This document shows positions 13,916-39,613 of a stretch of DNA of 41,957 bases, one piece after another; position 1 is the first letter of the stretch, and each line of letters starts with the position of its first letter. The notes below the pieces were generated by a model. It had not been told where the DNA came from. It did not search any database and was given only the letters and a program-made list of their open reading frames with translations. Made by a program: the position numbers and the translations under genes. Origin of the DNA: an uncultured bacterium (GTDB lineage Bacteria > Patescibacteriota > Minisyncoccia > Moranbacterales > GWC2-37-73); contig CAIOVI010000011.1 in NCBI GenBank assembly GCA_903861715.1, positions 1-41,957 of the forward strand, written 5' to 3'.

Positions 13916-15001
13916 ATGTTAAAAGAAAAAATTGAGAAAATTAAAGAAGCGGCCCTGGTGGCAGTTGAAAACGCCAAAACCGTGGAAGAGGTTTTGCAAT
14001 TGGAAATTCAATTCTTGGGACGCAAAAGTGAGTTCGTGGGAATCTTGAGGCAACTTAAAGACGTTTCGCCTGAAGAAAAAAAAGAAGTTGGGCAATTGGC
14101 CAATGCTGTTAAAGTTGAAATTCAAACGCTGCTAGATCAAAAGAAAAAAAATCTCGCTTCAACTTTTGATGCTGCGGCGGAAAAAATTGACGTCACTGTT
14201 CCAGCTGTCAAATTGCGACGCGGTCATCTCCACCCCTTGACCCAAATTCAAAATGAAATTGAAGACATTTTCACTTCGATGGGTTTTGAAATTGCCGATG
14301 GCCCGGAAGTGGAAGATGAATTCCACAATTTTGACGCTCTTAACATGCCCAAGGATCACCCAGCTCGAGATATGCAAGACACTTTCTGGCTCAGATCGCA
14401 GACTAGTGCAGATAAGACGCAGACTAAGGCTGACAATAGACAGAACGACACAGAGGAAAAGAAAGGCGAACGGATTTTGCTGCGAACACATACTTCAAAT
14501 GTGCAAATTAGATATATGGAAACACATGAGCCGCCTTTTCGCATCATCGCCCCAGGCAGAATCTATCGTAATGAAGCAGGCGATTCAACTCATGAGCACA
14601 CCTTTCATCAATTCGAAGCCTTGGTGGTTGGCGATGATATCAACGTGGGAAATTTCAAATTTGTGGCACAACAATTTTTTTCCAAATTTTTCAAAAAAGA
14701 TATTCAAATTCGCATTCGACCGAGCTTCTTTCCTTTCACGGAACCAAGTTTTGAATTTGACATCAGTTGCACAGTTTGCGGTGGCAAAGGTTGCAGTGCT
14801 TGCAAAAATGCGGGCTGGTTGGAAATTGGTGGCGCTGGCATGGTCAATCAAAATGTTTTTGTGGCGGCTGGCTATCCAAGAAACAAATATCAAGGTTTTG
14901 CCTGGGGATTTGGGGTTGAGCGCCTAGCCATGATGAAATACAAAATCAGCGATATCCGCCTTTTCCACAGCGGAGATTTGAGGTTTATTAAACAATTCTA
15001 A
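13916..15001 (+). CDS. pheS: Phenylalanyl-tRNA synthetase alpha subunit, with repeat-derived insert
   Basis: PheS carries the catalytic core of the alpha2-beta2 enzyme that charges tRNA-Phe. The 361-residue product has an N-terminal coiled coil (1-85), motif 2 FRIIAPGRIYRNEAGDSTHE with HTFHQFE, and motif 3 GFAWGFGVERLAMMKY, so it is a complete class II synthetase. Between DMQDTFWL and LLRTHTS, where homologues have a short link, there is an extra hydrophilic stretch of about 25 residues (161-186). It is encoded by a repeat with two CGCAGACTA copies 21 nt apart. AAGGA lies 8 nt before the ATG. pheT follows. Confidence 0.96.
   Translation: MLKEKIEKIKEAALVAVENAKTVEEVLQLEIQFLGRKSEFVGILRQLKDVSPEEKKEVGQLANAVKVEIQTLLDQKKKNLASTFDAAAEKIDVTVPAVKLRRGHLHPLTQIQNEIEDIFTSMGFEIADGPEVEDEFHNFDALNMPKDHPARDMQDTFWLRSQTSADKTQTKADNRQNDTEEKKGERILLRTHTSNVQIRYMETHEPPFRIIAPGRIYRNEAGDSTHEHTFHQFEALVVGDDINVGNFKFVAQQFFSKFFKKDIQIRIRPSFFPFTEPSFEFDISCTVCGGKGCSACKNAGWLEIGGAGMVNQNVFVAAGYPRNKYQGFAWGFGVERLAMMKYKISDIRLFHSGDLRFIKQF
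14397..14455 (+). repeat. In-frame GCAGACTA-type repeat insert within pheS
   Basis: CGCAGACTA occurs at 14397-14405 and 14418-14426 (period 21 nt), followed by related degenerate units. It encodes a Thr/Asp/Lys/Gln-rich loop absent from the canonical PheS layout. Confidence 0.65.
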
Positions 15002-15048
15002 AACCCTACAAATCTACAAATAGAATACAAATCTACAAATTCGCATTG

Positions 15049-15171
15049 TTCCTCCCTTTGGAAAAGTGGCGAATGCGAGCGAGTGTAGCATTCGCGGGAG
15101 GGATTCGAAAACTTTCTTTTCTGGGTAGGTCTTTCAAATCCCCCTTAATCCCCCTTTTCTAAAGGGGAAAG
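15049..15171 (+). repeat. Nested palindromic intergenic element, copy B
   Basis: Same block order as 8558-8657, with an additional internal palindrome GCGAATGC / GCATTCGC that is also present in the inverted copy at 35272-35395. It fills the pheS-pheT gap, flanked by CTACAAAT simple repeats. Confidence 0.78.
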
Positions 15172-15222
15172 AGAATACATTTGTAGATTTGTAGCAAATT
15201 TGTAAATTTGTGGGAACTATTT

Positions 15223-17688
15223 ATGAAATATTCTTACAACTGGCTCAGGGAAATTTCGGGCACGAAACTATCACCAGAAGATTTGATCCAAGGCATCACG
15301 ATGCATGCTTTGGAAATTGAAGGCGTGGAAAAAGTCGGCAGTGATTTTGAAAATTTTGTGGTGGGCGAGATTTTGGAAATTTCCAAACATCCCAACGCAG
15401 ACAAGCTGCAACTGACTAAAGTCAATGTCGGACCCTCACTCCCAACCTCTCTCCCTGAGGGCGAGAGGGGAGATGGTAAGGATATTATTTTGGACATTGT
15501 TTGTGGCGCGAAAAACATCTCCGTTGGCGATAAAGTGCCTGTTGCTTTAGTAGGAGCAAAATTGCCAGCCAATGGAATGGAAATCAAGGCGGCAGAAATT
15601 CGCGGCGAAAAATCTTTTGGCATGCTTTGCGCCCAAGATGAACTTGGCCTGGGTAGCGATCACGCGGGCATTTTACTATTGGATAAAAATTTGAAAGTTG
15701 GCACGCCGCTCAAAAAAGTTTTGGGTGAAAATGATCAAATTTTGGAAATTAAGGTTTTGCCAGATCGAGCGCACGATGCAGTCAGTCATGTTGGCCTGGC
15801 TCGGGAAGTGGCAGCGCTTACGGGAGACAAAATCGAATATGATTATGATAGTTTAAAACTTGGCAAGAAAAAGACTGTCAGTTTGAAAGTTTCAATCGAA
15901 AATCAGAATTTGAGTAGTCGCTACATTGCAGCTAAATTAGATAACGTTAAAATTGAAAAATCTCCACAGTGGATTGCGCAAAGATTGGAAAAATGTGGGA
16001 TCAGGTCAATCAACAACGTGGTGGATGTGACGAATTATGTGATGCTGGAACTGGGTCAACCGATGCATGCTTTTGATTTTGCGCAAATTTCCAAAGATGG
16101 GACGGCGGAAATAATTGTCAGAAGCGCCAAAGAAAATGAGGAAATCACAGTTCTTGATGGCAGTGTGAAAAAAATGTCAGCGGATGACATCGTGATTGCC
16201 AACAAACAAGGCGTACTAGCCATAGCTGGGGTGATGGGCGGCAAAAATTCTGGAGTAAATAATGATACGACTAGCATCGTGCTTGAAGCAGCAGCCTTCA
16301 ATTCAACAGCCATTCGCAAAACCAAAAATAAATTCGCCTTGCAAACTGATGCAGCGATGCGTTTTGAAAAAGGACTTGATCCAAACCTCGCGGAAAAAGC
16401 CATGGTGCGGGCCATTGAAATTCTGACGCACATCACGGACGCTAAACTTGATGGCCTTGTGGACAAATATCCGAATCCAGTGAAGCCCTGGACCATCAAA
16501 CTCGAGTTGGCTTATGTGAATTCCTTGCTAGGTGAAAATGTGCCAGCCAAGGTTAGCCAGGAAATTCTCAGCTCACTTGGCTTTGAAGGGAAAAAAGTCG
16601 GCAAGGATTTGACAGTGACGGTGCCAACTTTCAGATTGGATGTGCTCACGCAAGAAGATTTGATTGAAGAAATTGGTCGAGTTTATGGCTATGACAAAAT
16701 TGCGCCAACCGCGCAACTTGTTTCCATCAAACCGCCAGTCATCAATGAGCAAAGAACTTTTGTCAGAAAAGTGAAAGATGTCTTGGTTGGGCAAGGATTT
16801 TCCGAAGTCTACAATTATGCTTTTTATAGTCAAAAAGATAGTGAAAATGCTAGATTGCAAAATTTTAAACATCTTGAACTTGAAGCGCCAGGCAATCTTG
16901 AGCAAACAATTTTGCGCGTGAGCTTGATTCCAAACTTGCTCAAAAATGTCAGCGAAAATTTGAAATTCAACAAGGAACTGCACCTTTTTGAAACTGGCAA
17001 AGTTTTTTTGCCGGGCGAAAATGTTTTGCCAACTGAAAAAAATATGCTTTGCGGAGTGGTGGTGTTGGAAAATAAGGCAAGCAAAAAAAATGGCCAAAGC
17101 ACTCTGCAGCAAACTGCTTTTTTTCAAGCGAAAGCATTTGCGGCCGACTTGCTGCTACAATTGGGCATCACTGATCACTATTTTGCAACTTTCGAAGAAG
17201 GCTTTGAACAAATCTCAAAATCATTTTGCCATGAGGGTCGCGCCAGTGAAATCAGAATCACTGGGAGCAACGACGCCGTCGGTTGCTTGGCGGAAATAAA
17301 TCCAACTGTGCTGGCTGATTTTGACATCAATAGTCGCGTGGTCTTTTTTGAATTTGAAATGAAAGGCCTGCAAGCGGTTTCCACGGCTGAGCGAGAGTTC
17401 AAGGCCATTGCGAAATTTCCCAACGTGTTGCGAGATGTTTCAATGGTGGTTTCTGATGGCAGGAGGATTGATGAAATTTTAAGTCTTATTCAAACTGAAG
17501 GAGGGGATTTAATTGTCGACGTTGATTTGTTTGACATCTTTGATTTTGCTGATGGCACTTCCAGTTATGCTTTTCATGTGATATTCAATGCTGAAGATCG
17601 AACACTCACGACTCAAGAAGCAGACAGCGTGATGGAAAAAATCATTTCCAAACTTGAATCGGAGCTTAAAGTTCAGATTAGGAAATAG
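15223..17688 (+). CDS. pheT: Phenylalanyl-tRNA synthetase beta subunit, with repeat-derived insert
   Basis: PheT forms the structural, tRNA-binding and editing part of the PheRS heterotetramer. The 821-residue product has the N-terminal tRNA-binding (EMAP-like) domain (FVVGEILEISKHPNADKLQL), B3/B4 editing and B5 domains (NNVVDVTNYVMLELGQPMHA), the catalytic-like core, and the C-terminal ferredoxin-like anticodon-binding domain. After KVNVG there is an extra 16-residue stretch (71-86, PSLPTSLPEGERGDGK) encoded by a palindromic repeat; homologues continue directly to the DIVCGA strand. The ATG at 15223 is chosen over 15208, which would add a non-homologous leader. Confidence 0.97.
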   Translation: MKYSYNWLREISGTKLSPEDLIQGITMHALEIEGVEKVGSDFENFVVGEILEISKHPNADKLQLTKVNVGPSLPTSLPEGERGDGKDIILDIVCGAKNISVGDKVPVALVGAKLPANGMEIKAAEIRGEKSFGMLCAQDELGLGSDHAGILLLDKNLKVGTPLKKVLGENDQILEIKVLPDRAHDAVSHVGLAREVAALTGDKIEYDYDSLKLGKKKTVSLKVSIENQNLSSRYIAAKLDNVKIEKSPQWIAQRLEKCGIRSINNVVDVTNYVMLELGQPMHAFDFAQISKDGTAEIIVRSAKENEEITVLDGSVKKMSADDIVIANKQGVLAIAGVMGGKNSGVNNDTTSIVLEAAAFNSTAIRKTKNKFALQTDAAMRFEKGLDPNLAEKAMVRAIEILTHITDAKLDGLVDKYPNPVKPWTIKLELAYVNSLLGENVPAKVSQEILSSLGFEGKKVGKDLTVTVPTFRLDVLTQEDLIEEIGRVYGYDKIAPTAQLVSIKPPVINEQRTFVRKVKDVLVGQGFSEVYNYAFYSQKDSENARLQNFKHLELEAPGNLEQTILRVSLIPNLLKNVSENLKFNKELHLFETGKVFLPGENVLPTEKNMLCGVVVLENKASKKNGQSTLQQTAFFQAKAFAADLLLQLGITDHYFATFEEGFEQISKSFCHEGRASEIRITGSNDAVGCLAEINPTVLADFDINSRVVFFEFEMKGLQAVSTAEREFKAIAKFPNVLRDVSMVVSDGRRIDEILSLIQTEGGDLIVDVDLFDIFDFADGTSSYAFHVIFNAEDRTLTTQEADSVMEKIISKLESELKVQIRK
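15433..15480 (+). repeat. In-frame palindromic repeat insert within pheT
   Basis: 48 nt (16 codons) containing CCTCTCTCCC (15446-15455) and GGGCGAGAGG (15459-15468), complementary except one position, around a TGA loop that is out of frame. The type is common as an intergenic palindrome in bacteria. Confidence 0.7.
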
Positions 17689-17985: not shown

Positions 17986-19041
17986 ATGAAAAACTCGATT
18001 GTTGAGGCAAAAAAGACCCAAGCAGAAAAAGGCTTTTTTTCCAGTGCTTTGGATGAAATTATTGGCGATTTGTCAGTCAGATCACAGGAAATTATTTTCA
18101 GTCGCTATGGCCTGGGTGGCGATGGAGCCTTGACCTTGGAGGAAATTGGTGGCAAATACACCATCACCAGAGAAAGAGTTCGCCAAGTGATTCGCGAAGC
18201 TCTCAAAAAAGTCAGAGAAAAAAACAACCATCCGCAATTTATCAAAATTAAGGACACGGTTATTTTGGCAATCACGAAAAATAGTGGTATAATTAGTAAG
18301 AAGAAATTGCTGAAAGTTCTTGGTGAGGAGAATTTGGCTGAACAAGCTGCTGTGCATTTTTTTCTGGAATGCATCAGTCAAATCAAGAGTCATGAAGTGA
18401 AAGGCGAACTGGCTTTCTCCTATTCACTTTCGGATTTTAATCTTGAGCATTGGCGAAAAACAAAAAATGCAACCCTAGCAGTTCTTAAGCGAGAAAAGAA
18501 ACCTTTGACCGGTGACGAACTTTTCAAATTTGCAGTTGGCGAATTGGAGAGCAATTTGAGCAAGGATCATTTTGTTTATCATCTGGAAATTTCTCAAGAA
18601 ATCAAACAAAATAATTTTGGCAAATGGGGCGCTATCAAATGGAAAGAAATTTCACCCAAGGGCACGCGCGAAAAGGCCTATTTGATTCTCAAAGAAGCTG
18701 GCAAGCCACTGCATTTCAAGGAAATTGCGCAAAGAATTGACAAACATCAACTCAACAAGAAAAAGACTCATCCGCAAACAGTGCACAACGAGCTCATTAA
18801 AGACAGTAATTTTGTTTTGGTTGGACGTGGAATTTATGCGCTGGCAGAATGGGGTTATCAAAAGGGGACTGTCAAAGATGTGATCAAAGAAATCATTTCA
18901 AAGAATTCAAAATCACTGAGCCGAGAAGAAATCTTGAAGAAAGTGCTGGAAGTCAGACAGGTGAAAAAATCCACCATTGTGATCAATCTCAACAATTTCT
19001 TTGCTAAATCAAAAGAAGGCTTGTATTCAATCAAGAAATAA
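17986..19041 (+). CDS. Sigma-70 region 4 / HARE-HTH regulator
   Basis: The 351-residue product opens with a sigma region 4-like domain (residues about 20-80): LDEIIGDLSVRSQEIIFSRY and the helix-turn-helix TLEEIGGKYTITRERVRQVI. There is no region 2, so it is not a complete sigma factor. The C-terminal half contains a HARE-HTH domain (about 225-290, AYLILKEAGKPLHFKEIAQR ... GRGIYALAEWG), the winged helix found in RpoE/delta and chromatin proteins. This architecture is typical of CPR genomes. It probably modulates RNA polymerase or promoter choice. It lies 65 nt upstream of the membrane protein/VirD4-like pair and may control it. Confidence 0.85.
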   Translation: MKNSIVEAKKTQAEKGFFSSALDEIIGDLSVRSQEIIFSRYGLGGDGALTLEEIGGKYTITRERVRQVIREALKKVREKNNHPQFIKIKDTVILAITKNSGIISKKKLLKVLGEENLAEQAAVHFFLECISQIKSHEVKGELAFSYSLSDFNLEHWRKTKNATLAVLKREKKPLTGDELFKFAVGELESNLSKDHFVYHLEISQEIKQNNFGKWGAIKWKEISPKGTREKAYLILKEAGKPLHFKEIAQRIDKHQLNKKKTHPQTVHNELIKDSNFVLVGRGIYALAEWGYQKGTVKDVIKEIISKNSKSLSREEILKKVLEVRQVKKSTIVINLNNFFAKSKEGLYSIKK

Positions 19042-20387: not shown

Positions 20388-20535
20388 GCCGATGCGAAAC
20401 TACCTGCCTCGACGGCAGGCGGGCGAATGAAATACGAATCTACGAATTTACGAATGAAAAAATTGTTACATGGTTGAAAATCCCACAAATCTACAAATAA
20501 AATGTTTTTAATTAATTCTAAACGACAACGCTCGT

Positions 20536-23065: not shown

Positions 23066-23305
23066 GATTAAGCTGAAGTATTGCTCGTAAATGTTCTTTA
23101 TCCTTACGGGGCTGTTTAAGATTTTAGGACTTATGTGCCTGCTTTCAAATTCCTAGAGCGTATGCTCTTTGCTAAGCAAGCTGCTCCTGGTCTACTTCAA
23201 GTATCTCTTGCTTTAGTTGACGTATGGTGACAAGGCAAGTCACTTTTAAGTGAAAAAGAAAAAGTTTGCTCGCTCAGATTAAAAATATTAAATGTAACTA
23301 AACAT

Positions 23306-24672: not shown

Positions 24673-26694
24673 ATGAGTAAATACAAGGATTTATCTAAAG
24701 AAGAACTCCTAAAGCTGATTGAAAAGCAGGAGGCGGAATTGAAGTCAAAGAAATATGGCTTAGTTTGGGATGCCGAAAGGGAACCTGAGCAAGTTGTTTT
24801 GGATTGCGAAAGCAATTTGCCGGTTTTGAAAAGAGTTAAGGGCAAAGAAATTAAAACCAATGATGAGCAGGATAATATCTTGATTGAAGGTGATAATTAT
24901 CACGCGCTGACAGTTTTGAATTATACGCACAAGGAAAAAATTGATGTGATTTATATTGATCCGCCTTATAACACAGGAAATAAAGATTTTGTATATAATG
25001 ATCGTTACGTGGACAAGGAAGACGGATACCGGCATAGCAAGTGGCTGAATTTTATGGAGAAGCGACTTAACCTTGCAAAAAATCTGCTCAAAGAAACAGG
25101 CGTGATTTTTATTTCCATTGATGATAATGAAGTCGCCCAACTTAAAATGCTTTGTGATAAAATTTTTGGGGAGGATAATTTCATTGCTCAAATAGTCTGG
25201 CAGAAAAAATATGCTGCAAGTAATGATAGCAAAACAATTGCAAGTGTTCATGAATATATATTATGTTACACAGTAAGTATTAACGGGTGGAAACCAAAAC
25301 TATTTAAACGATCTGATGACTTAAACGCGAAGTATAAAAATCCAGACAATGATATCCGAGGTGATTGGTATGCTACAAATTTATCTGTAAAAACTTTTTC
25401 AGTAAAAAATTATTACGAAATAATTTCTCCTAACGGAAACAAATTTTTACCACCACCTACTAGGTGCTGGGTATTTTCTAAAGAAAAATATAAAGAATTA
25501 TTGGAAGATAATAGAATTACTTTTGGGAAAAATGGAAATACAAGACCATATTTAAAAACTTTTTTATCAGAAGTACAGCAAGGTGTTGTTCCTGATACAT
25601 TATGGTTACACAAAGACGCTGGGCATAACATAGAAGCAAAGAGTTTACTAAGGTCAATGTTTGGAGATTTGAATAATCTTTTCGATACGCCTAAACCAGT
25701 TAGATTAATAAAACGGATTTTAGAAATTTCAACCAAGAAAAATTCGATAGTTCTTGATTTTATGGCGGGTTCTGGAACAACTGGACAAGCAGTATTGGAA
25801 TTAAATAGTAGCGACAAGGGATCTAGAAAATTCATTCTTTGTACAAATAATGAAAATAAGATAGCCGAAGATATTTGTCAGCCAAGAATTTTAAAAGTTA
25901 TTGGTGGATATTCACCGCAAAAAAGTGAAAGAGTGATTGGTTTGGGTGGAAACTTGCAATATTTCAAAACTGATTTGGTCAAAAAAACCACGGCAGTGCA
26001 GACAAAACTTGACATAACCTCCAAGTGCACTGAGATGCTCTGCGTTAAAGAAAATATTTTCAATTTAGAAAAGGAAGTTGAAGACTGGAAGATTTTTTCG
26101 TCCAATAAAAAAGAGAAATTTTTGTGCGTTTATTATAATTTCATTGAAAAAAGTTTTGATGATTTTTTGACCGAGCTTAAAAAAATAAAGGCAGAAAAGG
26201 CTGTCTATATTTTTTCTTTGTCGGATGAGCTTGATGAAGAAATCATTGCTGTGGTTGAAAATGCTAGCCTTGAGGCTATCCCGCAAAAGATTTTGAAAGT
26301 TTATGAAGAATGGGTCAAAAAAAATGTGCCAATGCGGAGTGACTTGATTTTGTTGGAATTCCAAAGGGCAAAGGAGAGAATTTTTGATCAAAAAGACAAG
26401 GAGGAAGGCGCACGGTTGCTCAGGATTGTTTTGGAAAAAACAATTGTCAAAATTTCTCAGCAAAATGGGGTTGAATTTCTGAAAGAAAATGCTAAAGGTG
26501 AAAAGACTTCAATTTTGAATGACAAACTGAAAGGTAAAAACATTTTTTCCAAAGTGCAGTGGGAGGAAAACAAAACCTTTTTGGCGATTGGAAATTATGC
26601 AGCTCATGGGGAATATGATCAATACGAGCTTGAGCAGGTGAAAAATTTCTATAAGCACGTCCAAGCTTTGTTAAGCAAATTTAACCTAGAATAA
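24673..26694 (+). CDS. mod: Type III restriction-modification methyltransferase (Mod)
   Basis: The 673-residue beta-class N6-adenine (or N4-cytosine) methyltransferase has DPPYN (96-100) in motif IV before FMAGSGTTGQA (363-) in motif I, the order typical of type III Mod. The region between them (about residues 165-360) is the target recognition domain. Its codons are visibly more A/T-rich (many TTA Leu, ATA, AGA) than the flanks, as if exchanged. The C-terminal extension ends NYAAHGEYDQYELEQVK, a helical segment of unknown role. The stop is 1 nt before the Res start. Mod sets the sequence specificity of the complex and protects host DNA. Confidence 0.93.
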   Translation: MSKYKDLSKEELLKLIEKQEAELKSKKYGLVWDAEREPEQVVLDCESNLPVLKRVKGKEIKTNDEQDNILIEGDNYHALTVLNYTHKEKIDVIYIDPPYNTGNKDFVYNDRYVDKEDGYRHSKWLNFMEKRLNLAKNLLKETGVIFISIDDNEVAQLKMLCDKIFGEDNFIAQIVWQKKYAASNDSKTIASVHEYILCYTVSINGWKPKLFKRSDDLNAKYKNPDNDIRGDWYATNLSVKTFSVKNYYEIISPNGNKFLPPPTRCWVFSKEKYKELLEDNRITFGKNGNTRPYLKTFLSEVQQGVVPDTLWLHKDAGHNIEAKSLLRSMFGDLNNLFDTPKPVRLIKRILEISTKKNSIVLDFMAGSGTTGQAVLELNSSDKGSRKFILCTNNENKIAEDICQPRILKVIGGYSPQKSERVIGLGGNLQYFKTDLVKKTTAVQTKLDITSKCTEMLCVKENIFNLEKEVEDWKIFSSNKKEKFLCVYYNFIEKSFDDFLTELKKIKAEKAVYIFSLSDELDEEIIAVVENASLEAIPQKILKVYEEWVKKNVPMRSDLILLEFQRAKERIFDQKDKEEGARLLRIVLEKTIVKISQQNGVEFLKENAKGEKTSILNDKLKGKNIFSKVQWEENKTFLAIGNYAAHGEYDQYELEQVKNFYKHVQALLSKFNLE

Positions 26695-26695
26695 T

Positions 26696-29086
26696 ATGTC
26701 ATCTATTCAATTAAAAAAATATCAAGAAACTGCTGTTGAAAAAATCATTGTCAAAACCAAAGAGGTCTTTGAGCGCAAAGAGGTCTCAACTTCAGATGAC
26801 AAAATTATTATTTTCAAAGCCCCGACGGGAAGTGGCAAGACTTTCATGATGGCTGAGTATATTTTTCAGCTCATCAAGGAGATGGAAAATAAAAGAGAAT
26901 TCAGTATGTGTTTTCTTTGGGTTAGTATTGGCAAGGGGGAATTGCACAAGCAAAGTTATCGTGCACTGAAAAAAAACTTCGGTCCTTTTCCAAATGTTTC
27001 TTTGCTGGAAGAAAAATATTTTGGCTCACTGCGAACAATTGAAAATAATGATGTAGTGGTGGTTAATTGGGAAAAATTAAGAGCCAAAAACAATCAAACA
27101 GGAGAGTGGAAAAATGTTTTAATGAAAGACAAAGAGACAGTTAATTTTCGTGAACTTGTGGAAAACACAAAAAAGAATGGCACGAAAATAGTAATGATTA
27201 TTGACGAAAGCCATAGTGGCGCAACTAGCGAACGAGCGAATGAACTTCGTGAGATTATTGATAGTGACGTGATTGTGGAAATGAGCGCCACGCCCATTTT
27301 GCTAGACGGAAAACACGATAGCCGTCTGGTTGAGGTATCTGCAAATGAAGTGATTGATGAAGGCATGATTAAAAAAGAAATCATCGTTAATGAAAACATT
27401 GATGAAATCGCTGAGGATGAAATAACTTCGCAAGACTTGGTTTTGGAGGCTAGTTATCGCAAGAGATTAGAACTTGTGAAAATGTATGAAAAAGAAAAAG
27501 CCAATGTTAATCCCTTGGTCTTGATTCAAATTCCAACAGGAGAACAAGGTAATGAAAAAAGAAAACGTATTGAAAAGTTTTTGGCAGAAAAAGACATTGC
27601 ACTAGATAATGGAAAATTAGCGGTCTGGCTGAGTGAGGAAAAAGTGAATTTAGAAATCCTCGAAAATAATGTCAGTGGAGTGGAATTTCTTATTTTCAAG
27701 CAAGCCATTGATACTGGTTGGGATTGCCCAAGAGCCCAAATTTTGGTGAAATTTCGAGAATCGCACAGTGAAACTTTTGAGCTGCAAACAGTGGGTAGGA
27801 TTTTGAGAATGCCGGAGGCAAAACATTATCAAGATGACAATTTAAACAAAGCCTTTATTTATACCAATATAAATCCTGAAAATTTGGAATTCAAGGGGAA
27901 GGATTTGACGATTAAAAATGCAATCAAATCAATTCTCGTAAAACGCTCTGAGGCTTATCAGACCTTGAAATTGAGATCATATTATCGAAACAGAGTTGAT
28001 TTTGGTGACTTAACGCTCGGTTTTCATGAAGTGTTGGAGAATGTTCTTTGTGCAAAATTTGAAATTGAAAAAAATAAATTTGATTTTAATTTTGCTGAAA
28101 AAAATAAACAACAACTTAGCAAAAAAATAAATCTTAGTGGCTTGGAAAATAAATCTGAAATAATTTTAAACAACAAGATAGATGCAAAATTATTTGATGG
28201 ATTGGACAAAGAAAAAATTATTCAGAGTGAAAATTTTCAAGTTTATTTATCGGAAGACGATAAGGATGCACTTTTTGAAAATTTGATAAAAATGAATCTC
28301 AATGGTTTTGCTCCAAAAAGATCGATGTCAATTTTTATGGGAGCAATTTTTAGTTGGTTCAAGAAATATCTAGGTATCACTCGTTTTGATAATGGAACAA
28401 TTTTTATTCAGAATATTATTTTGAATAATATCGAAGTGTTTGATCAGCTTTTTGATGAAGCGGTGCTTCAATATAGACCTGTAAAAAATGAAGAAATAAA
28501 AAGAAAAATAAAGGAAGTTGAACAATGGAATGAGCAGTGGGAGATTGCCCAGAGCAGAAATTATAATCCAGACAATTATAAACCTTTTGATTTTAGTCTC
28601 TCGCTATATCAAAGACCAACTGAAAAAAAAGCTTATCTCAATTTTGACAGCGAAATTGAAAGAGAATTTGTGGAATTTTTGGAAGAAAATAAAGATAAAA
28701 TTTCTTGGTGGTGGCAAAATGGCAATGAGCATATGGCGCTTAATTTTGGAATCAAATACGGTTTGGGTTCAACTTTTCAGCCAGATTTTTTAGTGTCGCT
28801 TAAAAATGGAAAAATTGGAATTTTCGATACTAAGGCTAGCGGATATAATGAAGGCGACAATAAAGTAAAATCTGAAGCTTTGCAAAAATACATCAAAGAA
28901 GAAAATGAAAAAAATAAAAAAGAAAAAATCTTTGGTGGACTTGTTATTAAGAGTGGGGAACACTTCAGAATCAATAGTGATCTGGAATATGAATCATTTA
29001 AAATGGCAGATGGAGTAAGAGAGAGTTTTGCTAAATATGGATATGCGAAGGAAGGCAAGAAGGGATGGCCCTATTTAGAATTTTAA
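26696..29086 (+). CDS. res: Type III restriction enzyme Res subunit (helicase-nuclease)
   Basis: The 796-residue SF2 translocase has Walker A APTGSGKT (42-49), DESH (170-173), SATP (197-200), and motif VI QTVGRILRMPE. A C-terminal PD-(D/E)xK nuclease shows TFQPDFLVSLKNGKIGIFDT followed by KASG. It cleaves DNA with Mod when unmethylated sites meet. All motifs are intact, so the system is probably active. Coupled to mod with a 1-nt gap. Confidence 0.93.
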   Translation: MSSIQLKKYQETAVEKIIVKTKEVFERKEVSTSDDKIIIFKAPTGSGKTFMMAEYIFQLIKEMENKREFSMCFLWVSIGKGELHKQSYRALKKNFGPFPNVSLLEEKYFGSLRTIENNDVVVVNWEKLRAKNNQTGEWKNVLMKDKETVNFRELVENTKKNGTKIVMIIDESHSGATSERANELREIIDSDVIVEMSATPILLDGKHDSRLVEVSANEVIDEGMIKKEIIVNENIDEIAEDEITSQDLVLEASYRKRLELVKMYEKEKANVNPLVLIQIPTGEQGNEKRKRIEKFLAEKDIALDNGKLAVWLSEEKVNLEILENNVSGVEFLIFKQAIDTGWDCPRAQILVKFRESHSETFELQTVGRILRMPEAKHYQDDNLNKAFIYTNINPENLEFKGKDLTIKNAIKSILVKRSEAYQTLKLRSYYRNRVDFGDLTLGFHEVLENVLCAKFEIEKNKFDFNFAEKNKQQLSKKINLSGLENKSEIILNNKIDAKLFDGLDKEKIIQSENFQVYLSEDDKDALFENLIKMNLNGFAPKRSMSIFMGAIFSWFKKYLGITRFDNGTIFIQNIILNNIEVFDQLFDEAVLQYRPVKNEEIKRKIKEVEQWNEQWEIAQSRNYNPDNYKPFDFSLSLYQRPTEKKAYLNFDSEIEREFVEFLEENKDKISWWWQNGNEHMALNFGIKYGLGSTFQPDFLVSLKNGKIGIFDTKASGYNEGDNKVKSEALQKYIKEENEKNKKEKIFGGLVIKSGEHFRINSDLEYESFKMADGVRESFAKYGYAKEGKKGWPYLEF

Positions 29087-31204: not shown

Positions 31205-31316
31205 AGATAGAACACACGGCATACAACATATAACAATATACAATACGTAACACCCAACAAAGATACTAGCATTTTGCTCCATGTTCTATGTTCCATGTTA
31301 TGTTCCAAAGACTTTT
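31205..31316. repeat. Simple ACATAACA/GTTCCATG-type repeat tract
   Basis: It is made of variants of ATAGAACAC, CATATAACA and ATGTTCCATG. Similar tracts are at 34455-34490 and 37255-37341, and inside gltX. Its ATGTTCTATG gives a spurious upstream start for recJ. Confidence 0.6.
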
Positions 31317-33023: not shown

Positions 33024-33354
33024 TACAAATAGTGATTATTTCGAGTTATATTCTTTGACTATGAATTGTGCAAATGTTGCATGTGAAAATTTGAAATTTT
33101 AAATTTTAAATTTGAAATTAAATCCTAAATGCTAAATGAATTAATTTTTTGAAATAATTTTTAATCTTATACCAAATCAATTAAATTAAATTGCTGTTGG
33201 TTGCAAGGAGGTTCGACCTCCCTAATGGAGGTCGAACCTCCAACGTATAGCTGTAACTAATTAAGTTTATTCTGTATTATTTAAATTCATTTTTTAATTT
33301 TAAAATTTGATATTGATTTAAAATTTCAAATTTCAAATTTAAAATTATTTTAAT
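33024..33354. other. Intergenic region with simple AT repeats and a strong hairpin
   Basis: Runs of TTTGAAATTT-type sequence lie on both sides of the palindrome at 33207-33241. No gene or structured RNA recognised. Confidence 0.6.
33207..33241. repeat. Perfect 15-bp inverted repeat, 5-nt loop
   Basis: GGAGGTTCGACCTCC and GGAGGTCGAACCTCC flank CTAAT. Each arm is itself a smaller palindrome (GGAGGT/ACCTCC), so two small hairpins or one long one can form. No T tract follows. Confidence 0.8.
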
Positions 33355-34473
33355 ATGCGTATTGCTTTTGTTCATGATTATTTGGTCCAACATGGGGGAG
33401 CCGAAAGGGTGCTGGAATGTTTTTGCGAAATTTTTCCCTATGCCCCAATTTACACCATCGTGCACAACAAGCAGGCCATGCATGGGGCTTTTGAAGACAA
33501 AAGAATCTACACTTCCTATCTGCAAAAAATGCCATTCACCAAAAATTGGCATCGCATTTTTCCATTGCTGATGCCACCAGCCATTGAGCAATTTGATTTT
33601 TCGGCCTATGACGTGGTGGTTTCAGATTCGTCCAGTTATGCCAAGGGCATCATCACGCGGCCCGAGACTTTGCACATTTGCTATATGCACACGCCGATGC
33701 GCTATGCTTGGGATGATTGTCAAAAATATACGCGCGACTTTTATTTCCCACGCTTTGTCAAAAGCATGATTCCTTTTGCCATGAACTACATTCGGCTTTG
33801 GGACAAGGTCAGTGCTGACCGCGTGGACGTGTTCGTGGCCAATTCCAATTTTGTGGCCAATCGCATTCGCAAATATTATCGCAAAGAAGCGTTGGTGGTT
33901 CATCCGCCAGTCGACACCAAAAGATTTTCGCCAGTCATTGGTGGTGTGCAAGAAAACAAACCGTATTTTTTGATGGTGGGAAGACTCATTGCTTACAAGC
34001 GACATGACATCACCATCAAGGCTTTCAATGAATTGGGACTAACACTCAAAATCATTGGTCGGGGTCCAGAAATGAAAAGACTCAAAAAAATGGCCGGACC
34101 AACCATTGAGTTTTTGGGTCGAGTGGATGATGATGAATTGAAAGAATATTATTTGAACTGCCAAGGTTTGGTTTTTCCGCAAGAAGAAGATTTTGGCATC
34201 GTGGCCATGGAAGCCTTGGCTTGTGGCAAACCGCTCGTGGCTTTTCAAGGAGGGGATATTCCTGAACATATGGAAGACAAAACTATGGGCGTTTTTTTCC
34301 AAGAGCAAACCAGCCAGGCTATTGTTGAAGCTGTCAAAAAATTTCAAACAATGTCTTTCGATCCCCAGTACATTTCCAACAAAGTCCAGAAATTCAATCG
34401 AGAAATTTTCAAATCGAGGATGAAGGAGATTATTGAGAATAAGCTCAGGGAGCACATAACACGTAACGCATAA
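33355..34473 (+). CDS. GT4-family glycosyltransferase
   Basis: The 372-residue product has a GT-B fold: N-terminal FVHDYLVQHGGAERVLE (acceptor side) and C-terminal YFLMVGRLIAYKRHDITIKA with FPQEEDFGIVAMEALACGKP, the E-x7-E nucleotide-sugar motif of GT4. It probably adds a sugar in envelope or exopolysaccharide synthesis. The last eight residues (REHITRNA) are encoded by the simple repeat CACATAACACGTAACGCA, so the stop codon is repeat-derived. Donor and acceptor unknown. Confidence 0.9.
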   Translation: MRIAFVHDYLVQHGGAERVLECFCEIFPYAPIYTIVHNKQAMHGAFEDKRIYTSYLQKMPFTKNWHRIFPLLMPPAIEQFDFSAYDVVVSDSSSYAKGIITRPETLHICYMHTPMRYAWDDCQKYTRDFYFPRFVKSMIPFAMNYIRLWDKVSADRVDVFVANSNFVANRIRKYYRKEALVVHPPVDTKRFSPVIGGVQENKPYFLMVGRLIAYKRHDITIKAFNELGLTLKIIGRGPEMKRLKKMAGPTIEFLGRVDDDELKEYYLNCQGLVFPQEEDFGIVAMEALACGKPLVAFQGGDIPEHMEDKTMGVFFQEQTSQAIVEAVKKFQTMSFDPQYISNKVQKFNREIFKSRMKEIIENKLREHITRNA

Positions 34474-34556
34474 CATGGAACATGAAGCATGGGGAATTCA
34501 ATTCCTAATGTCTAATTCCTAATTTCTAATGCCAAATATAGAACGTGAAAGGACCG

Positions 34557-34668
34557 TGTCATGCTGAACTCCATGGCGATGCCGTATGGCTGTCGTGTTT
34601 CAGAATCTACTTTCTTTGCCTCACTAAACTGCCCGTAACCAAGATGCTGAAATAAATTCAGCATGACA
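34557..34668. repeat. Intergenic inverted-repeat element with TGTCATGCTGAA ends
   Basis: TGTCATGCTGAA (34557-34568) and TTCAGCATGACA (34657-34668) are perfectly complementary. Ends resemble those of the element at 6580-6728. Confidence 0.7.
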
Positions 34669-34684
34669 AATTATTTTTAAAAAA

Positions 34685-34804: not shown

Positions 34805-34814
34805 GAATGCATTG

Positions 34815-35105: not shown

Positions 35106-35144
35106 GTTTTTAAGGTATGAATTTAGGACTATTTGTAACTGTAA

Positions 35145-35173: not shown

Positions 35174-35271
35174 GACTACCGCAAAAGCGGGGGATGGTAT
35201 ATGGTTATTAGAGAAAGATATTAGATTCTAAATTATAGATTCTGGAATTTTTATCAATTCATGAATGCATT

Positions 35272-35395
35272 TCTTCCCCCTTTGGAAAAGGGGGATTGAG
35301 GGGGATTCGAAAGCCCAGCTCAAGCAAGGAAAAATTTTCGAATCCCTCCGCGAATGCTGCACTCGCTCGCATTCGCCACTTTTCTGAAGGGAGGA
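35272..35395 (-). repeat. Nested palindromic intergenic element, copy C (inverted)
   Basis: The reverse complement matches copy B closely, including the GCGAATGC / GCATTCGC inner palindrome and the CCTCAATCCCCC block. It lies upstream of the second glycosyltransferase. Confidence 0.78.
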
Positions 35396-35448
35396 ATGAT
35401 ACTTTTTGTAGATTCGTATTTAATTCGTAGTTTCGCATCGGTAATAAT

Positions 35449-36597
35449 ATGAGAGTAGGAATTGACATCCGCTGTTTGGTGGAAGGAAAAAACACGGGAG
35501 TGGAAGAATATACGACCAACATTTTGCATCGGCTTTTTGAGTTGGATCAAAAAAATGATTATGTTTTGTTTATCAATTCTTGGCACGAGCCTAAAGCGCA
35601 GTTGCAACAATTTGAGAAATACAAAAATGTTTCCGTCCAGCAGTTTCACATTCCAAATAAACTTTTGAATTTTTGTTTTTGGTATTTGCGTTGGCCACAG
35701 ATTGACAAAATGCTCGGCGGAGTGGACAAATTTTTCATGCCGAACATCAACTTCTTGGCGCTTTCCAAAGACGCGAAATTAGTTCTGACCATTCATGATC
35801 TTTCTTTTGAAATTTTTCCCGAAACTTTTTCTTTCAAGCGACGTGCTTGGCATCATTTCATCAACACCCGCAGTCTTTGCCAGCGAGCTGAAAAAATTAT
35901 CACCGTTTCTGATTCATCCAAGCAGGATTTGATTAGTTATTATGGCATTGACCCTAGCAAAGTTGAAAGGATTTATAACGCCGTGGCCGATGACATTGAG
36001 CAGCTTGATCGCAACGACCCGCGCTTGATGGCCGTGAAAGAAAAATATCATCTGCCTTTCAATTTCATTTTCTATCTCGGCACGATTGAGCCGCGCAAAA
36101 ACATTCCGGCGATTGTGGCGGCGTTTGATCAATTGAAAACTTTGCAAAATCCACAACTGGATAAGTTTAAGTTGGTGATCGCGGGCGGCAAAGGTTGGGG
36201 CGTGGAGAAAATTCTGACCAAAATGCGCAAGGCTCAAAAAACCGATGATATCATTTTCACCACTTGCATCACCAACCAAGACAAAGCAGCTGTCTACACC
36301 CTGGCTTCAATTTTCGTTTATCCTTCTTTTTTTGAAGGGTTTGGCATTCCAGTGTTGGAAGCGATGCGCTGCGGCGTGCCAGTCATCACTTCCAATGTTT
36401 CTTCGCTGCCAGAAGTGGTGGGTGAGGGCGGGCTCATGGTTGATCCAGACAATCCTAATGAACTTTATTTAGCCATGAAGGAATTGCTGCTCAATAAAGA
36501 TTTTTATGACCAACTCAAAAACAAAGCCCTACGGCAATCAATTCGCTTCAACTGGACAACTTCCGCCCGTCAACTGTTGACGATTCTAGGAAAGTAA
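35449..36597 (+). CDS. GT4-family glycosyltransferase
   Basis: The 382-residue product starts [20 protein letters not shown] (acceptor domain with a GVxxY-like loop) and has [20 protein letters not shown] and [20 protein letters not shown] in the donor-binding half, the mannosyltransferase-like GT4 pattern. Full length. Likely envelope glycan assembly along with the GT at 33355 and the WecG-like enzyme downstream. Sugar specificity unknown. Confidence 0.92.
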
Positions 36598-36632
36598 ATT
36601 TTCAGCACCTCCCCAAACAATTTATTTGATAC

Positions 36633-36664
36633 TTCACTTCCATAAATCGATTTATGGAAGTGAA
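36633..36664. repeat. Perfect 32-bp palindrome (ACTTCCATA family, copy 4)
   Basis: Arms TTCACTTCCATAAATC / GATTTATGGAAGTGAA meet at ATCGAT with no loop. It contains the same ACTTCCATA core as the three copies at 12139-12721. It lies just upstream of the thpR promoter. Confidence 0.85.
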
Positions 36665-36687
36665 ACTAAAATTAGTATTAGAAAACC

Positions 36688-36715
36688 TTGATTTTTCCTG
36701 CGTCTGTGCTAAAAT
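36688..36715 (+). promoter_or_regulatory. thpR promoter, likely leaderless
   Basis: TTGATT (36688-36693), 16 nt, TAAAAT (36710-36715), with an extended -10 TGC. The ATG at 36722 is 6 nt after the -10. Confidence 0.65.
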
Positions 36716-36721
36716 CGGCTT

Positions 36722-37261
36722 ATGCAAAAGAAAAAAATATTTATTGAAATTCAGCTTCCGGCTCAAACCAAGCGGCGTTTGGCCAAAAGATTTGAACAGT
36801 ATGGCCAATTGCCAATCAAGTGGAGCAAGGAAGACAATTTGCATCTGACCGTGGCTTTTGTGGGCTATGTGGATGAAAGTGTCACGCCGGAAATTTGTGC
36901 CAAGGTTGGACAGGCTGTCGAAAGTCTGGAGTCTTTTGATTTGGAATTGGACAAAATCGAATTTAGCCCAAGTGCAAGTGACCCCAAAATGGTGGTGCTG
37001 AGCGGTCAGCCAAGTGAAGAGCTGCGAATTCTCAACGAAGCCATCGAGGAAGCACTAGGCATGAACAAGGTCGAGCACAAACAATTTAGTCCCAAGATTA
37101 CTTTGGGAAAAATTCGAAAAGAAAAATGGACTGAACTCGAGGAAAAGCCTAGTCTCGAAGAAAAAGTTCATATTATTGTGCCAGTTGACTATGTGAGTGT
37201 GATGGAAAGCAAGGGTGGAGGAGCGGAGTATATTTCACTGGAGGACTGTCCGTTAGCATAG
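36722..37261 (+). CDS. thpR: 2H phosphoesterase, RNA 2',3'-cyclic phosphodiesterase-like (ThpR)
   Basis: The 179-residue product matches the ThpR/LigT 2H family: FIEIQLPAQTKRRL at the start, WSKEDNLHLTVAFVG with the first HxT motif (H41), and a second motif region QFSPKITLGKI. In that second motif the expected His of HxT is Lys (K125), so one of the two catalytic histidines is missing. The enzyme may be inactive or work differently. Neighbours are glycosyltransferases; no RNA ligase is seen. Confidence 0.85.
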   Translation: MQKKKIFIEIQLPAQTKRRLAKRFEQYGQLPIKWSKEDNLHLTVAFVGYVDESVTPEICAKVGQAVESLESFDLELDKIEFSPSASDPKMVVLSGQPSEELRILNEAIEEALGMNKVEHKQFSPKITLGKIRKEKWTELEEKPSLEEKVHIIVPVDYVSVMESKGGGAEYISLEDCPLA

Positions 37262-37341
37262 AACACGTAACACATAACATAGAGCATAGAACAGATGAAA
37301 ATTTAAACATTTTTTGTTCCATGTTCCATGTTCCATGCTTC
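37262..37341. repeat. Simple ACATAACA/GTTCCATG repeat tract
   Basis: Contains variants of AACACATAACATAGA and three tandem GTTCCAT units. It is related to the tracts at 31205 and 34455 and to the insert in gltX. Confidence 0.6.
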
Positions 37342-38046
37342 ATGATGGTGCTTGGCATTGAAATCGACAATCTGACCAAAAAAGAAATTCTTGAAAAGCT
37401 GGAATTTTTTTTGAGTGAAGATAGTTTTCACCAAATTGCTACGATTAATCCAGAATTTATTCTCCGGGCCAAAAAGAATAGAGAATTCAAAGCCATTTTA
37501 AACCAGTGTGATTTGAAAGTGGCTGATGGGATTGGAATCAAATACGCTTTCTCGCGCTTTGGGAAAAAATTGAAAACCACAGTGCCTGGCGCTGACCTGT
37601 TGACGGAAATTTTGCAAATTGCCAATGCCAAAAGACTCAGTGTTTTCCTAGCGATTAACAAAGATGGCCTAAGCTCCTACAAGGAAATAGTTTTAGTATT
37701 AAATAAAAACTATCCAAACATCAACTTTTTCGGCGAAGATATTAATCCAAGAATTACTGATTACCAGTTACTGATTACCAGTTACTCTATTTTGTTTTGC
37801 AACTTCGGGGCTCCGTTTCAGGAAACCTTTATCCAAAGCCAGAAAGATGCTAGAATAAGGATAGCCATGGGAGTCGGAGGTAGCTTTGATTTTCTGACTG
37901 GCAAAATCACGCGCGCCCCTTTTTGGATGCGCCAATTTGGGCTTGAATGGCTATGGCGCTTTGTTCAAGAGCCGAAATATAGAGTCAAGAGAATTTTCAA
38001 GGCAGTGATCGTTTTTCCAATTAAAATTTTGTTTTCAAAAAAATAA
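37342..38046 (+). CDS. WecG/TagA/CpsF-family glycosyltransferase (GT26), with repeat-derived insert
   Basis: The 234-residue product has the family opening VLGIEIDNLTKKEILEKL, TINPEFILRA, VADGIGIKYAFSRFG and the C-terminal GVGGSFDFLTGKITRAP, WMRQFGLEWLWRFVQEPKY. These transfer N-acetylmannosamine-type sugars to lipid-linked GlcNAc in envelope polymer synthesis. Residues 138-148 (ITDYQLLITSY) are encoded by a 14-bp unit repeated 2.4 times, lying just before the conserved FGAPFQE segment. The start is 37342 (or 37345); an upstream ATG lies in a simple repeat. Confidence 0.9.
   Translation: MMVLGIEIDNLTKKEILEKLEFFLSEDSFHQIATINPEFILRAKKNREFKAILNQCDLKVADGIGIKYAFSRFGKKLKTTVPGADLLTEILQIANAKRLSVFLAINKDGLSSYKEIVLVLNKNYPNINFFGEDINPRITDYQLLITSYSILFCNFGAPFQETFIQSQKDARIRIAMGVGGSFDFLTGKITRAPFWMRQFGLEWLWRFVQEPKYRVKRIFKAVIVFPIKILFSKK
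37754..37786 (+). repeat. 14-bp tandem repeat inside the WecG-like gene
   Basis: Unit TTACTGATTACCAG at 37754-37767 and 37768-37781, plus a partial third TTACT. It has an intergenic-type simple repeat character but is in frame. Confidence 0.75.
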
Positions 38047-38047
38047 C

Positions 38048-39613
38048 ATGACTCAAACAGAAAAAAAAGTCAGGGTTCGTTTTGCGCCTTCACCAACGGG
38101 CTATTTGCACATTGGCGGCTTGCGAACGGCACTTTACAACTATCTTTTCGCCAAAAAAAAGGTGGGAACTTTTGTCCTGCGGGTTGAAGACACCGATCAA
38201 AAAAGATTTGTCGAGGGCGCAGTGGAAAATCTCATCCAAGCACTTGAACAAATGGGCTTGAGTTGGGATGAAGGAGTTTACATCATGGATCATGGAACAT
38301 GTAACATAGAACACGAGAAAAAAAATTCAAAAACTTATGCTGGTATAGTTGAAGTTGGTGAATTTGGACCGTATGTGCAGTCAGAAAGATTGGAGCTTTA
38401 CAAAAAATATGCCGAGCAGTTAGTAAAGGACGGAAAAGCTTACTATTGTTTTTGCGACTGCGAAAGGCTGGAACAGATGCGTGAAAAACAGCAACAAGCA
38501 AAATTGCCACCAATGTATGATCGCTATTGTTTGGATAATTTAACCTCTGCAGAAATAGCCCAAAAATTGGCTGAAAAATGTCCGGCGGTTGTTCGCTTGA
38601 AAGTTCCCAAAGATGAAATTATTGAGTTTGAAGATTTGGTGCGAGGCAAAGTGACTTTTGCCAGCAATACGATTGATGATCAGGTGTTGCTCAAATCTGA
38701 TGGTTTTCCGACTTATCATTTGGCCAATGTGGTGGACGATCATTTGATGGAAATTACTGAGGTGATTCGCGGTGAAGAATGGCTTCCAAGCACACCCAAG
38801 CATATCTTGCTTTATCGCGCTTTTGGTTGGCAAGAGCCACAGTTTGCACATATTCCACTGCTGCTAAACGCTGACAAGTCGAAACTTTCCAAACGCCAAG
38901 GCGACGTGGCAGTTGAAGATTATCTACAGAAAGGATATCTGAAAGAGGCTGTCATTAATTTTGTGGCGATGCTTGGCTGGAATCCAGGGGAGGGAAGTGT
39001 GCAGGAGATTTTTTCCATGGCTGAGCTTATCGAAAAATTTGATTTGAAAAAAGTTCACAAAGCTGGCGCCGTTTTTGATTTGAAAAAACTAGATTGGCTT
39101 AATGCGCAATACATCAAAAAATTATCCGTAGATGAATTACACAACAGTGCTAAGACATTTTTTGAGGCAAAAGAATTTTTTGAAACTTGGAACGTAAAAC
39201 GTGCAGTTTGGAGTGTGGCAGAAAAAGAAGAATACCTCAAAAAAGTTTTAGCTATTGAACAAGACCGACTAGCCAATTTGTCTCAGGTGGGAGATGAAAA
39301 TGAATTTTTCTTTAAGGATATAGCTTATGAAAAAAGTTTACTCGCTTGGAAAGAGATGACCGACCAGCAAGTGAAAGAATCTTTGCAAAAATCTTTACAA
39401 GTGCTTGGTGACACGTCAGAATCGCAATGGACACGTGAATTGCTGGAGCAAAACCTACTAGCAGCCGCTGGTGAAAAACGAGGAGAGTTGCTTTGGCCCC
39501 TGCGAGCATGCTTGACTGGCGTGCAAAAATCTCCGTCGCCATTTGATTGCGCTTGGGTGCTCGGAAAAGAAGAAACGCTCAAGCGCTTACAAAGAGCCTT
39601 ACAATTATTTTGA
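38048..39613 (+). CDS. gltX: Glutamyl-tRNA synthetase, with repeat-derived insert
   Basis: Class I synthetase charging tRNA-Glu (and possibly tRNA-Gln). The 521-residue product has RFAPSPTGYLHIGGLRTALY (HIGH-type), VLRVEDTDQKR, and KLSKRQGDVAVEDY (KMSKS-type), and a C-terminal anticodon-binding domain. After LSWDEGV and before FGPYVQSERLELY there is an extra stretch of about 25 residues (78-102, starting YIMDHGTCNIEHEKK), partly encoded by a GGAACATGTAACATAGAACA repeat. The gene starts 1 nt after the WecG-like stop. Confidence 0.96.
   Translation: MTQTEKKVRVRFAPSPTGYLHIGGLRTALYNYLFAKKKVGTFVLRVEDTDQKRFVEGAVENLIQALEQMGLSWDEGVYIMDHGTCNIEHEKKNSKTYAGIVEVGEFGPYVQSERLELYKKYAEQLVKDGKAYYCFCDCERLEQMREKQQQAKLPPMYDRYCLDNLTSAEIAQKLAEKCPAVVRLKVPKDEIIEFEDLVRGKVTFASNTIDDQVLLKSDGFPTYHLANVVDDHLMEITEVIRGEEWLPSTPKHILLYRAFGWQEPQFAHIPLLLNADKSKLSKRQGDVAVEDYLQKGYLKEAVINFVAMLGWNPGEGSVQEIFSMAELIEKFDLKKVHKAGAVFDLKKLDWLNAQYIKKLSVDELHNSAKTFFEAKEFFETWNVKRAVWSVAEKEEYLKKVLAIEQDRLANLSQVGDENEFFFKDIAYEKSLLAWKEMTDQQVKESLQKSLQVLGDTSESQWTRELLEQNLLAAAGEKRGELLWPLRACLTGVQKSPSPFDCAWVLGKEETLKRLQRALQLF
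38291..38314 (+). repeat. Intergenic-type repeat inside gltX
   Basis: GGAACATGTAACATAGAACA with flanks matches the style and words of the intergenic tracts at 31205, 34455 and 37262, but here is read in frame. Confidence 0.7.

Follow-up and report, generated by a model that had tools for sequence, protein, structure and literature searches.

Seven-base tandem arrays in loops of core proteins of a Moranbacterales genome and its relatives

Contig CAIOVI010000011.1 of an uncultured bacterium of the order Moranbacterales (assembly GCA_903861715.1) encodes several core enzymes whose reading frames run through short repeats. We analyzed this complete contig (C11; 41,957 bases, hereafter the window) together with the genome to which it belongs (1,276,207 bases in 63 contigs, scored 100% complete) and with related genomes. 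An earlier note on this DNA had described four unrelated repeats, each in frame, in pheS and pheT (alpha and beta chains of phenylalanyl-tRNA synthetase, PheRS), gltX (glutamyl-tRNA synthetase, GluRS) and a WecG-like glycosyltransferase gene, and had likened them to Rickettsia palindromic elements (RPEs). The phenomenon is real, widespread and larger than that note described; it had been sensed correctly and mislabelled. The inserts appear for the most part to be short, degenerate runs of seven-base units (heptads) in tandem, which belong to many families, are dispersed in Moranbacteria genomes and turn over quickly. It is probable that such dispersed, slippage-prone arrays, filtered by selection to loops, termini and the gaps between genes, fill the same permissive protein loops repeatedly.

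The comparison covered 36 genomes: that of the window (G000), its congeners (G001–G004), further members of the same family (G005–G017) and of the same order (G018–G035). All are drafts, and the named ones are nearly all metagenome-assembled. The best named relatives of the pheS gene belong mostly to Candidatus Moranbacteria or Moraniibacteriota, which places the organism in the candidate phyla radiation (CPR; Patescibacteria), as the earlier note had supposed. Within the genus, the sole grouping resolved in a tree was G001 with G002. Loci were covered in 30 genomes for each of three genes, out of 35 that have a match to pheS and 34 each for gltX and TsaD. TsaD loops were delimited by alignment in 29 of the 30 loci (partial locus L200 excluded), and PriA loops were extracted by motif search from 14 of 24 loci, all 10 missed ones lying outside the family; the weak loci L237–L241 and the partial locus L233 did not enter the PriA set.

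Heptad arrays within and at the ends of proteins

The gltX gene (38048–39613, plus strand; Pfam PF00749, E = 1.6e-105) contains an in-frame period-7 array of ATCATGG, AACATGT and AACATAG units (ATCATGGATCATGGAACATGTAACATAGAACA; 38282–38313, plus strand), and the loop that harbors it is significantly self-similar at a lag of 7 nt (p = 0.002). The 14-mer GAACATGGAACATG of the same array family has 10 matches (overlapping ones counted) at 7 places in the genome, among which the degenerate gltX array itself is not found, and the reversed 14-mer has none. The in-frame repeat reported for gltX is thus confirmed and belongs to a dispersed family. In two solved GluRS chains among the matches listed, the insert region is unaligned (query residues 79–100 and 77–103), and in an AlphaFold2 model of GltX (mean pLDDT 83.3) confidence drops to 61 for residues 81–90, between two strands, the adjoining blocks scoring 92 and 90. 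Such gaps in solved homologues and the predicted drop in pLDDT suggest that the insert sites are exposed, flexible loops. That the loops are translated is likewise probable, judging from frames that stay open with conserved flanks on either side in many genomes.

In the neighboring gene for a WecG/TagA/CpsF-type glycosyltransferase (37321–38046, plus strand; Pfam PF03808, E = 2.6e-32) the repeat noted earlier also held up: an in-frame TTACTGA/TTACCAG array (37754–37786, plus strand) was returned by TRF with period 14 (2 × 7) and 100% matches, and the loop has p = 0.024 at lag 7. The TTACCAG unit sits exactly where a pure TTACTGA array would place an in-frame TGA. BLAST found no second place for this array within a sample of the organism's own genome (315,802 bases or roughly one quarter of its length, 78% coding). 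Matches do occur in loci of congeners, apparently between genes, because no open frame longer than 52 amino acids (aa) covers them.

Heptads also form the ends of open reading frames (ORFs). A CATGTTC array (37310–37346, plus strand) makes up the start of the WecG-like ORF (MFHVPCF); the same family is found there in G001 and differing sequence in G002, G003 and G004. An array of CATGTTC type (31275–31301, plus strand) forms the ORF start (MFYVPCYVP) of recJ, identified by Pfam, and L043:3072 has an identical copy of a 26-nt stretch that includes it. An AAATTTC array (8670–8700, plus strand) lies in the opening codons of secF, with an ATTAGAA-type array at the equivalent place in G001 and G002. 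The earlier statement that repeats supply the C-terminal codons of the glycosyltransferase at 33355–34473 proved accurate: CATAACA/CATGGAA heptads (34453–34492, plus strand) provide its last codons and stop, and the C-termini of the congeners differ.

Elsewhere in the own-genome sample, arrays occur in genes for TsaD (PF00814), PriA, a family 4 glycosyltransferase (GT4), an LTD protein and, with period 9, TatD. A special link to aminoacyl-tRNA synthetases, which the earlier note had emphasized, was therefore rejected, since these five proteins carry period-7 or period-9 arrays too. In the TatD DNase gene (L047:17694–18854) the insert is long and made of nine-base repeats of CCCCTTAAC type, and related nine-base repeats are found again at L047:9669 and L047:14594 of that contig. 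For G000, p at lag 7 was 0.029 and 0.0005 for TsaD loops 1 and 2 and 0.004 and 0.0005 for PriA loops A and B. Across 17 family genomes the two TsaD loops vary between 9 and 57 aa and between 11 and 74 aa and hold heptads of many families. Loop 2 of G000 holds a dispersed element, for which BLAST gave matches in L034, L043, L047, L048 and L049 and translated matches were obtained in G000, G001, G002 and G004. PriA loop A measures 18–20 aa in all eight family genomes examined, two further PriA loops bear arrays in some species, and differing heptad families are found at one and the same loop. One PriA array directly precedes what we take to be a nucleotide-binding motif.

Periodicity was quantified for the loops of gltX, TsaD and PriA, chosen because G000 carries arrays there. 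In the pooled loops of the family, G000 included, identity was 0.475 at lag 7, 0.427 at lag 14 and 0.381 at lag 21, compared at lag 7 with a mean of 0.300 and a maximum of 0.316 in 500 codon shuffles and with 0.252 in the rest of the genes; in other families of the order, the pooled loops gave 0.375 versus 0.289 for shuffles. Tested loop by loop, with G000 excluded, loops below 36 nt left out (6 of the 68 family loops and 16 of the 56 from elsewhere) and 1000 shuffles at lag 7 or 300 at control lags, p ≤ 0.01 at lag 7 was reached by 46 of 62 loops in the family and by 13 of the 40 outside it. At the control lags 5, 6, 8, 10 and 11 the corresponding numbers were 0, 3, 6, 2 and 0 within the family and 1, 1, 2, 0 and 0 outside.

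Turnover of loop sequences among relatives

Comparison between relatives shows that these sequences turn over. For gltX, the possibility that the insert is an ancient family feature applies to the loop extension, which is old (87–93 nt in 15 of the 16 family genomes with a gltX match; only 42 nt in G007), and not to its heptad content, which turns over. Among the five congeners the length is constant, and the units are of AACATGG type in G000, AAATTTC type in G001, G002 and G004, and AACAATA type in G003. More families occupy the loop within the family (AAGTTGA in G014, ACAACAG in G015, ACAACAA in G017) and in another family (AAATTCC in G023), and 8 of the 15 family loops other than that of G000 are significant at lag 7. 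The array of the WecG-like gene is also present in G003, while G001, G002 and G004 have ATCAGTAATCA-type sequence in reverse orientation and 11 more aa.

In pheS (13916–15001, plus strand; Pfam PF01409, E = 2.4e-100) a degenerate 57-nt in-frame insert encoding 19 aa (QTSADKTQTKADNRQNDTE; 14399–14455, plus strand) is missing from G002 and shortened by 21 nt in G003 and G004, and the PheRS structures 4p71 and 2rhq leave it unaligned. In the five genus members the loop measures 29, 29, 22, 22 and 10 aa, which amounts to a 21-nt step between 29 and 22 in this between-species comparison. The loop is commonly short, at about 10 aa, and reaches 17 aa in G015, G017 and G028 and 24 aa in G014; clear heptads occupy it in G015, G017, G022 and G028. 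Loops longer than 13 aa had p ≤ 0.05 at lag 7 in 5 of 10 cases among the 30 loci of the order set, in 2 of 8 among 24 loci of other CPR bacteria and in 2 of 3 in 11 named Moranbacteria, one being identical to the G014 loop (the loop of L102 is that of G014). Among 45 non-CPR pheS genes there was one long loop, which was not significant at lag 7. Two other CPR loci, L118 and L148, have loops of 51 and 30 aa that apparently consist of larger, hairpin-like repeats (p = 0.369 and 0.656 at lag 7). In pheT (15226–17688, plus strand; Pfam B3_4, B5, tRNA_bind and FDX-ACB), a G+C-rich, partly self-complementary in-frame insert of 48 nt (PSLPTSLPEGERGDGK; 15433–15480, plus strand) occurs in G000 and G004 but not in G001, G002 or G003, and is mostly a gap in Escherichia coli PheT (3pco).

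The sister genomes G001 and G002 are 92.3% identical over the 34,253 bases compared, and yet have almost nothing in common in the pheS loop, in TsaD loop 2, in loops A and B of PriA and in the region where the WecG-like gene starts; gltX is unchanged. TsaD and PriA were included in this comparison because of the G000 arrays there, and their loops carry different repeats in the two sisters. The net length change of the difference blocks is divisible by three in 8 of 8 coding and 5 of 17 noncoding cases. Empty or differently filled sites in relatives, which the earlier note had proposed to look for, were seen at gltX, pheS, pheT, TsaD and PriA, and its claim that several unrelated repeat families enter coding sequence in frame is borne out by them.

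The same families recur at unlinked places. Among 38 arrays, 21 pairs of unlinked arrays shared an identical heptamer, compared with a null mean of 1.2 and a maximum of 7 in 300 draws. The 14-mer GAACATGGAACATG has 10, 18, 14, 1 and 3 matches in G000 to G004 (overlapping ones counted) and occurs in 5 of the 31 other genomes; its reversed control has none in all 36. A scan with exact 20-mers, omitting those with more than 40 positions, detected some composite blocks of 25–34 nt that recur without a mismatch at unlinked places; TTTGGTTATTGTATCTTGTATCTTG, for instance, is shared by two contigs. Sharing of families and of blocks favors dispersal by copying over purely local slippage.

Arrays between genes and other features of the window

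At a strict setting, 17 period-7 arrays were found in the own genome and none in an order-3 Markov control. Arrays are mostly 21–55 nt long, mostly with 3–6 units. At a relaxed setting, and with genes called as a greedy longest-ORF set without annotation, the 315,802-base sample contained 6 coding and 24 noncoding arrays of period 7, 1 and 18 of period 8, 9 and 2 of period 9, and 5 and 11 of period 14; periods 5, 6, 10, 11, 12 and 13 each yielded 0–1 arrays in coding DNA. Per kilobase, period-7 arrays are 14 times and period-8 arrays 65 times rarer in genes than in noncoding DNA. Period-9 arrays, whose unit length is a multiple of three and some of which are ordinary protein repeats, are not depleted. 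The earlier note had named a frequency of in-ORF copies no higher than expectation as grounds for abandoning its proposal; taken literally, this outcome is what we found, because period-7 arrays in ORFs are rarer than expected. The depletion fits tolerance combined with purifying selection, with arrays kept out of genes and not directed to them.

In sequence around pheS, Moranbacteria had 3 period-7 coding arrays per 160 kb examined, other CPR bacteria had 16 in 345 kb and non-CPR bacteria 3 in 592 kb. These groups, like those used above for the pheS loops, were assigned from record titles (some simply 'bacterium') and pheS similarity. At least three of the 16 (L112, L117 and L119) lie inside pheS, the very gene used for fetching, and L113 and L115 show the same array.

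Intergenic heptad arrays of the window belong to the families AAATTTG (33084–33122, with 34 nt identical at L038:8498), AAATTTC (33314–33348), CTAATTC (34504–34533) and CATAACA (37261–37290), and a period-8 array of ACGAATCT type lies at 20430–20458. Interspersed repeats of about 60–180 nt, similar to miniature inverted-repeat transposable elements (MITEs) or repetitive extragenic palindromic (REP) sequences, are located between genes at 6620–6730, 8496–8662, 9625–9757, 15028–15214, 20389–20446, 23124–23212, 33166–33349, 34557–34679 and 35264–35445, each with several matches elsewhere in the congener genomes. Positions 9619–9761 form a 71-nt inverted repeat with 72% complementarity. An imperfect 28-nt palindrome, ATACTTCCATATATCCATTTATGGAAGT, is present in four copies that are 86–100% alike (12137–12164, 12631–12658, 12694–12721 and 36634–36661), and 27 nt of it recur at L051:8285. 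A comparison of the window with Rfam gave no match. Pfam further identified a toxin-antitoxin pair of AbiEi/AbiEii type (type IV; 3185–4764), a protein combining a sigma-70 region 4 domain with a HARE-HTH domain (17986–19041), and adjacent genes for a DNA methylase and a ResIII-type helicase (24673–29086), presumably a type III restriction-modification system.

Origin of the arrays and its implications

We infer the mode of origin and movement from these patterns. Replication slippage or template switching may create, copy and lose the arrays. Because 7 and 3 share no factor, a run of at least three seven-base units yields one and the same seven-residue peptide whichever frame of the strand is read; an array should consequently be tolerated if its net length change is a multiple of three, if its peptide has no stop and if it falls into a flexible loop or a terminus. 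Elsewhere selection would remove it, as the depletion in genes suggests. It would follow from this rule that the loops of GltX, PheS, TsaD, PriA and the WecG-like protein are refilled repeatedly, with families differing by species. Some of the inserts, a minority that includes that of pheT and parts of TsaD, are hairpin- or MITE-like sequences.

A number of observations weigh against so simple a picture. Two of the four starting examples, pheS and pheT, are not clear members of the heptad class. The pheS insert is real and in frame, as the earlier note had stated, but as a dispersed repeat it is weak: p at lag 7 is 0.437 against codon shuffles, and the single match elsewhere in the sample (39 nt, 77%; L047:5830–5868) lies inside a 142-residue open frame of doubtful reality. 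The pheT insert is likewise real, in two of five congeners, but the label of an intergenic-type repeat is not supported, its 37-nt core having no further copy at up to 3 mismatches in the five whole genomes. PriA loop C of G000 is not significant (p = 0.24 at lag 7), nor are 7 of the 15 family gltX loops other than that of G000, and event counts are inflated because the loops were preselected from G000 and species are not independent. Of the difference blocks between G001 and G002, just 2 among the 8 coding ones and 4 among the 17 noncoding ones have at least 15 of 21 matches at lag 7. Since few blocks are strongly period-7, and since one coding block, the TsaD block that is 30 nt longer in G001 than in G002, contains the GGGAGCTCAACTCCC hairpin, heptads are not the sole source of change. 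Drift in place from one family to another was addressed by a test for a common register, whose outcome was mixed, with in-register similarity of the gltX loops between G000 and G003 and none between G000 and G001. No insertion was caught with a target-site duplication or in polymorphic strains, and the A+T-rich, low-complexity families could partly yield shared blocks of 25–34 nt by chance.

Published systems are compared here as described in the consulted parts of the cited papers. Heptanucleotides were the commonest repeat class in most genomes surveyed, and polymerase slippage was proposed (Mrazek et al. 2007, via PMC4679880); TAACTGA heptads are described from Beggiatoaceae, Cyanobacteria and Bacteroidetes, and those of Beggiatoaceae fall within, or extend into, 25 predicted proteins, chiefly at the termini (MacGregor 2015; PMC4679880). 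The arrays described here resemble these long simple sequence repeats or short tandemly repeated repetitive sequences (LSSR/STRR), short 7-nt tandem arrays that are mostly intergenic and common to distant bacteria: tandem 7-nt units occur beyond chance (17 versus 0, with loop peaks at lags 7, 14 and 21), and 24 of 30 period-7 arrays are noncoding in a sample that is 78% coding. They differ from the STRR type in PMC4679880 by many families per genome, by their position in internal loops of essential enzymes and by a family that changes between relatives. Amino acid tandem repeats of Borgs, which within ORFs always have unit lengths divisible by three and are virtually all unique per genome (Schoelmerich et al. 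2023; PMC9879509), are similar as fast-evolving tandem repeats that make probably flexible protein segments, but here the units have 7 nt and the families recur across the genome, although a minor period-9 class does have units divisible by three. A 2025 survey found a subset of 6–9-bp short tandem repeats enriched in prokaryotic phyla (PMC12699852). Among the papers listed by searches of open-licence literature, none dealt with heptad arrays in proteins of Patescibacteria.

Slippage without any dispersal, by which every array would have arisen in place, agrees with the published prevalence and proposed origin of heptanucleotide repeats and with the 21-nt difference in pheS loop length within the genus (29 versus 22 aa). 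We nevertheless consider it unlikely: the same heptamer families occupy unlinked loci far above the null, show lineage-specific expansion and share composite blocks such as TTTGGTTATTGTATCTTGTATCTTG. Somewhat less probable still are mobile elements resembling RPEs or MITEs, inserted, in genes too, by a transposase such as a Y1/RAYT enzyme. In-frame hairpin- or MITE-like sequences do exist in TsaD loop 2 of G000, the GGGAGCTCAACTCCC block of G001, the gltX loop of G027 and pheT, and Y1_Tnp matches were obtained in 19 of the 36 genomes, including G000. As with RPEs, dispersed repeats are read in frame within unrelated genes and tolerated by the protein (here gltX, the WecG-like gene, TsaD, PriA and GT4). 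However, RPEs are about 150 bp long (2024 MITE review; PMC10969869), whereas the main agent here is 7-nt tandem arrays of mostly 21–55 nt, and there is no self-complementarity in units like AACATGG and TTACTGA, although AAATTTC contains the palindrome AAATTT. The RPE-like label is hence inappropriate, and the precedent itself had been misdescribed as one family in many genes, given that three of ten RPE families enter ORFs (PMC10969869). RPE-like transposition of heptads was rejected in view of the heptad-rich drafts G005 and G013–G017, which have no Y1_Tnp match. A telomerase-like writer based on reverse transcriptase was rejected as well, RVT_1 being matched in 18 of the 36 genomes and lacking a match in the other 18, among them the heptad-rich G003, G013, G014 and G017. 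The comparison revealed no enzyme that would have to be responsible, matches to each of the two being missing from heptad-rich drafts.

Ancient functional extensions, in which length or peptide matters and the repeats are incidental, would explain the near-constant lengths of the gltX loop and of PriA loop A. We regard this as very improbable, since the peptides are unalignable among close species and the TsaD loops vary so widely in length. An assembly artefact or chance low complexity is scarcely credible even though the genomes are drafts: in many genomes, each assembled separately, the arrays leave the reading frames uninterrupted, and the signal belongs specifically to lag 7.

Dispersed, slippage-prone heptad arrays under selection for tolerable sites therefore remain the preferred explanation. 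A more far-reaching version, that a process of CPR bacteria overwrites unconstrained DNA, loops included, with heptads copied from elsewhere, often without change in length and, as the counts around pheS would suggest, beyond Moranbacteria, is conceivable but rather doubtful; if true, loops of universal enzymes would be continually rewritten in bacteria of the candidate phyla. In the present case of a reduced genome, repetitive DNA enters the reading frames of tRNA synthetases, TsaD and PriA, all of them core enzymes. The length and sequence of loops in CPR proteins, as used in trees and structure models, can thus be repeat-derived, which calls for caution. The preference for period 7 offers a clue, open to testing, about a process of replication or repair in these hard-to-culture bacteria, and the natural series of same-site replacements among relatives allows one to ask how new protein sequence is tolerated.

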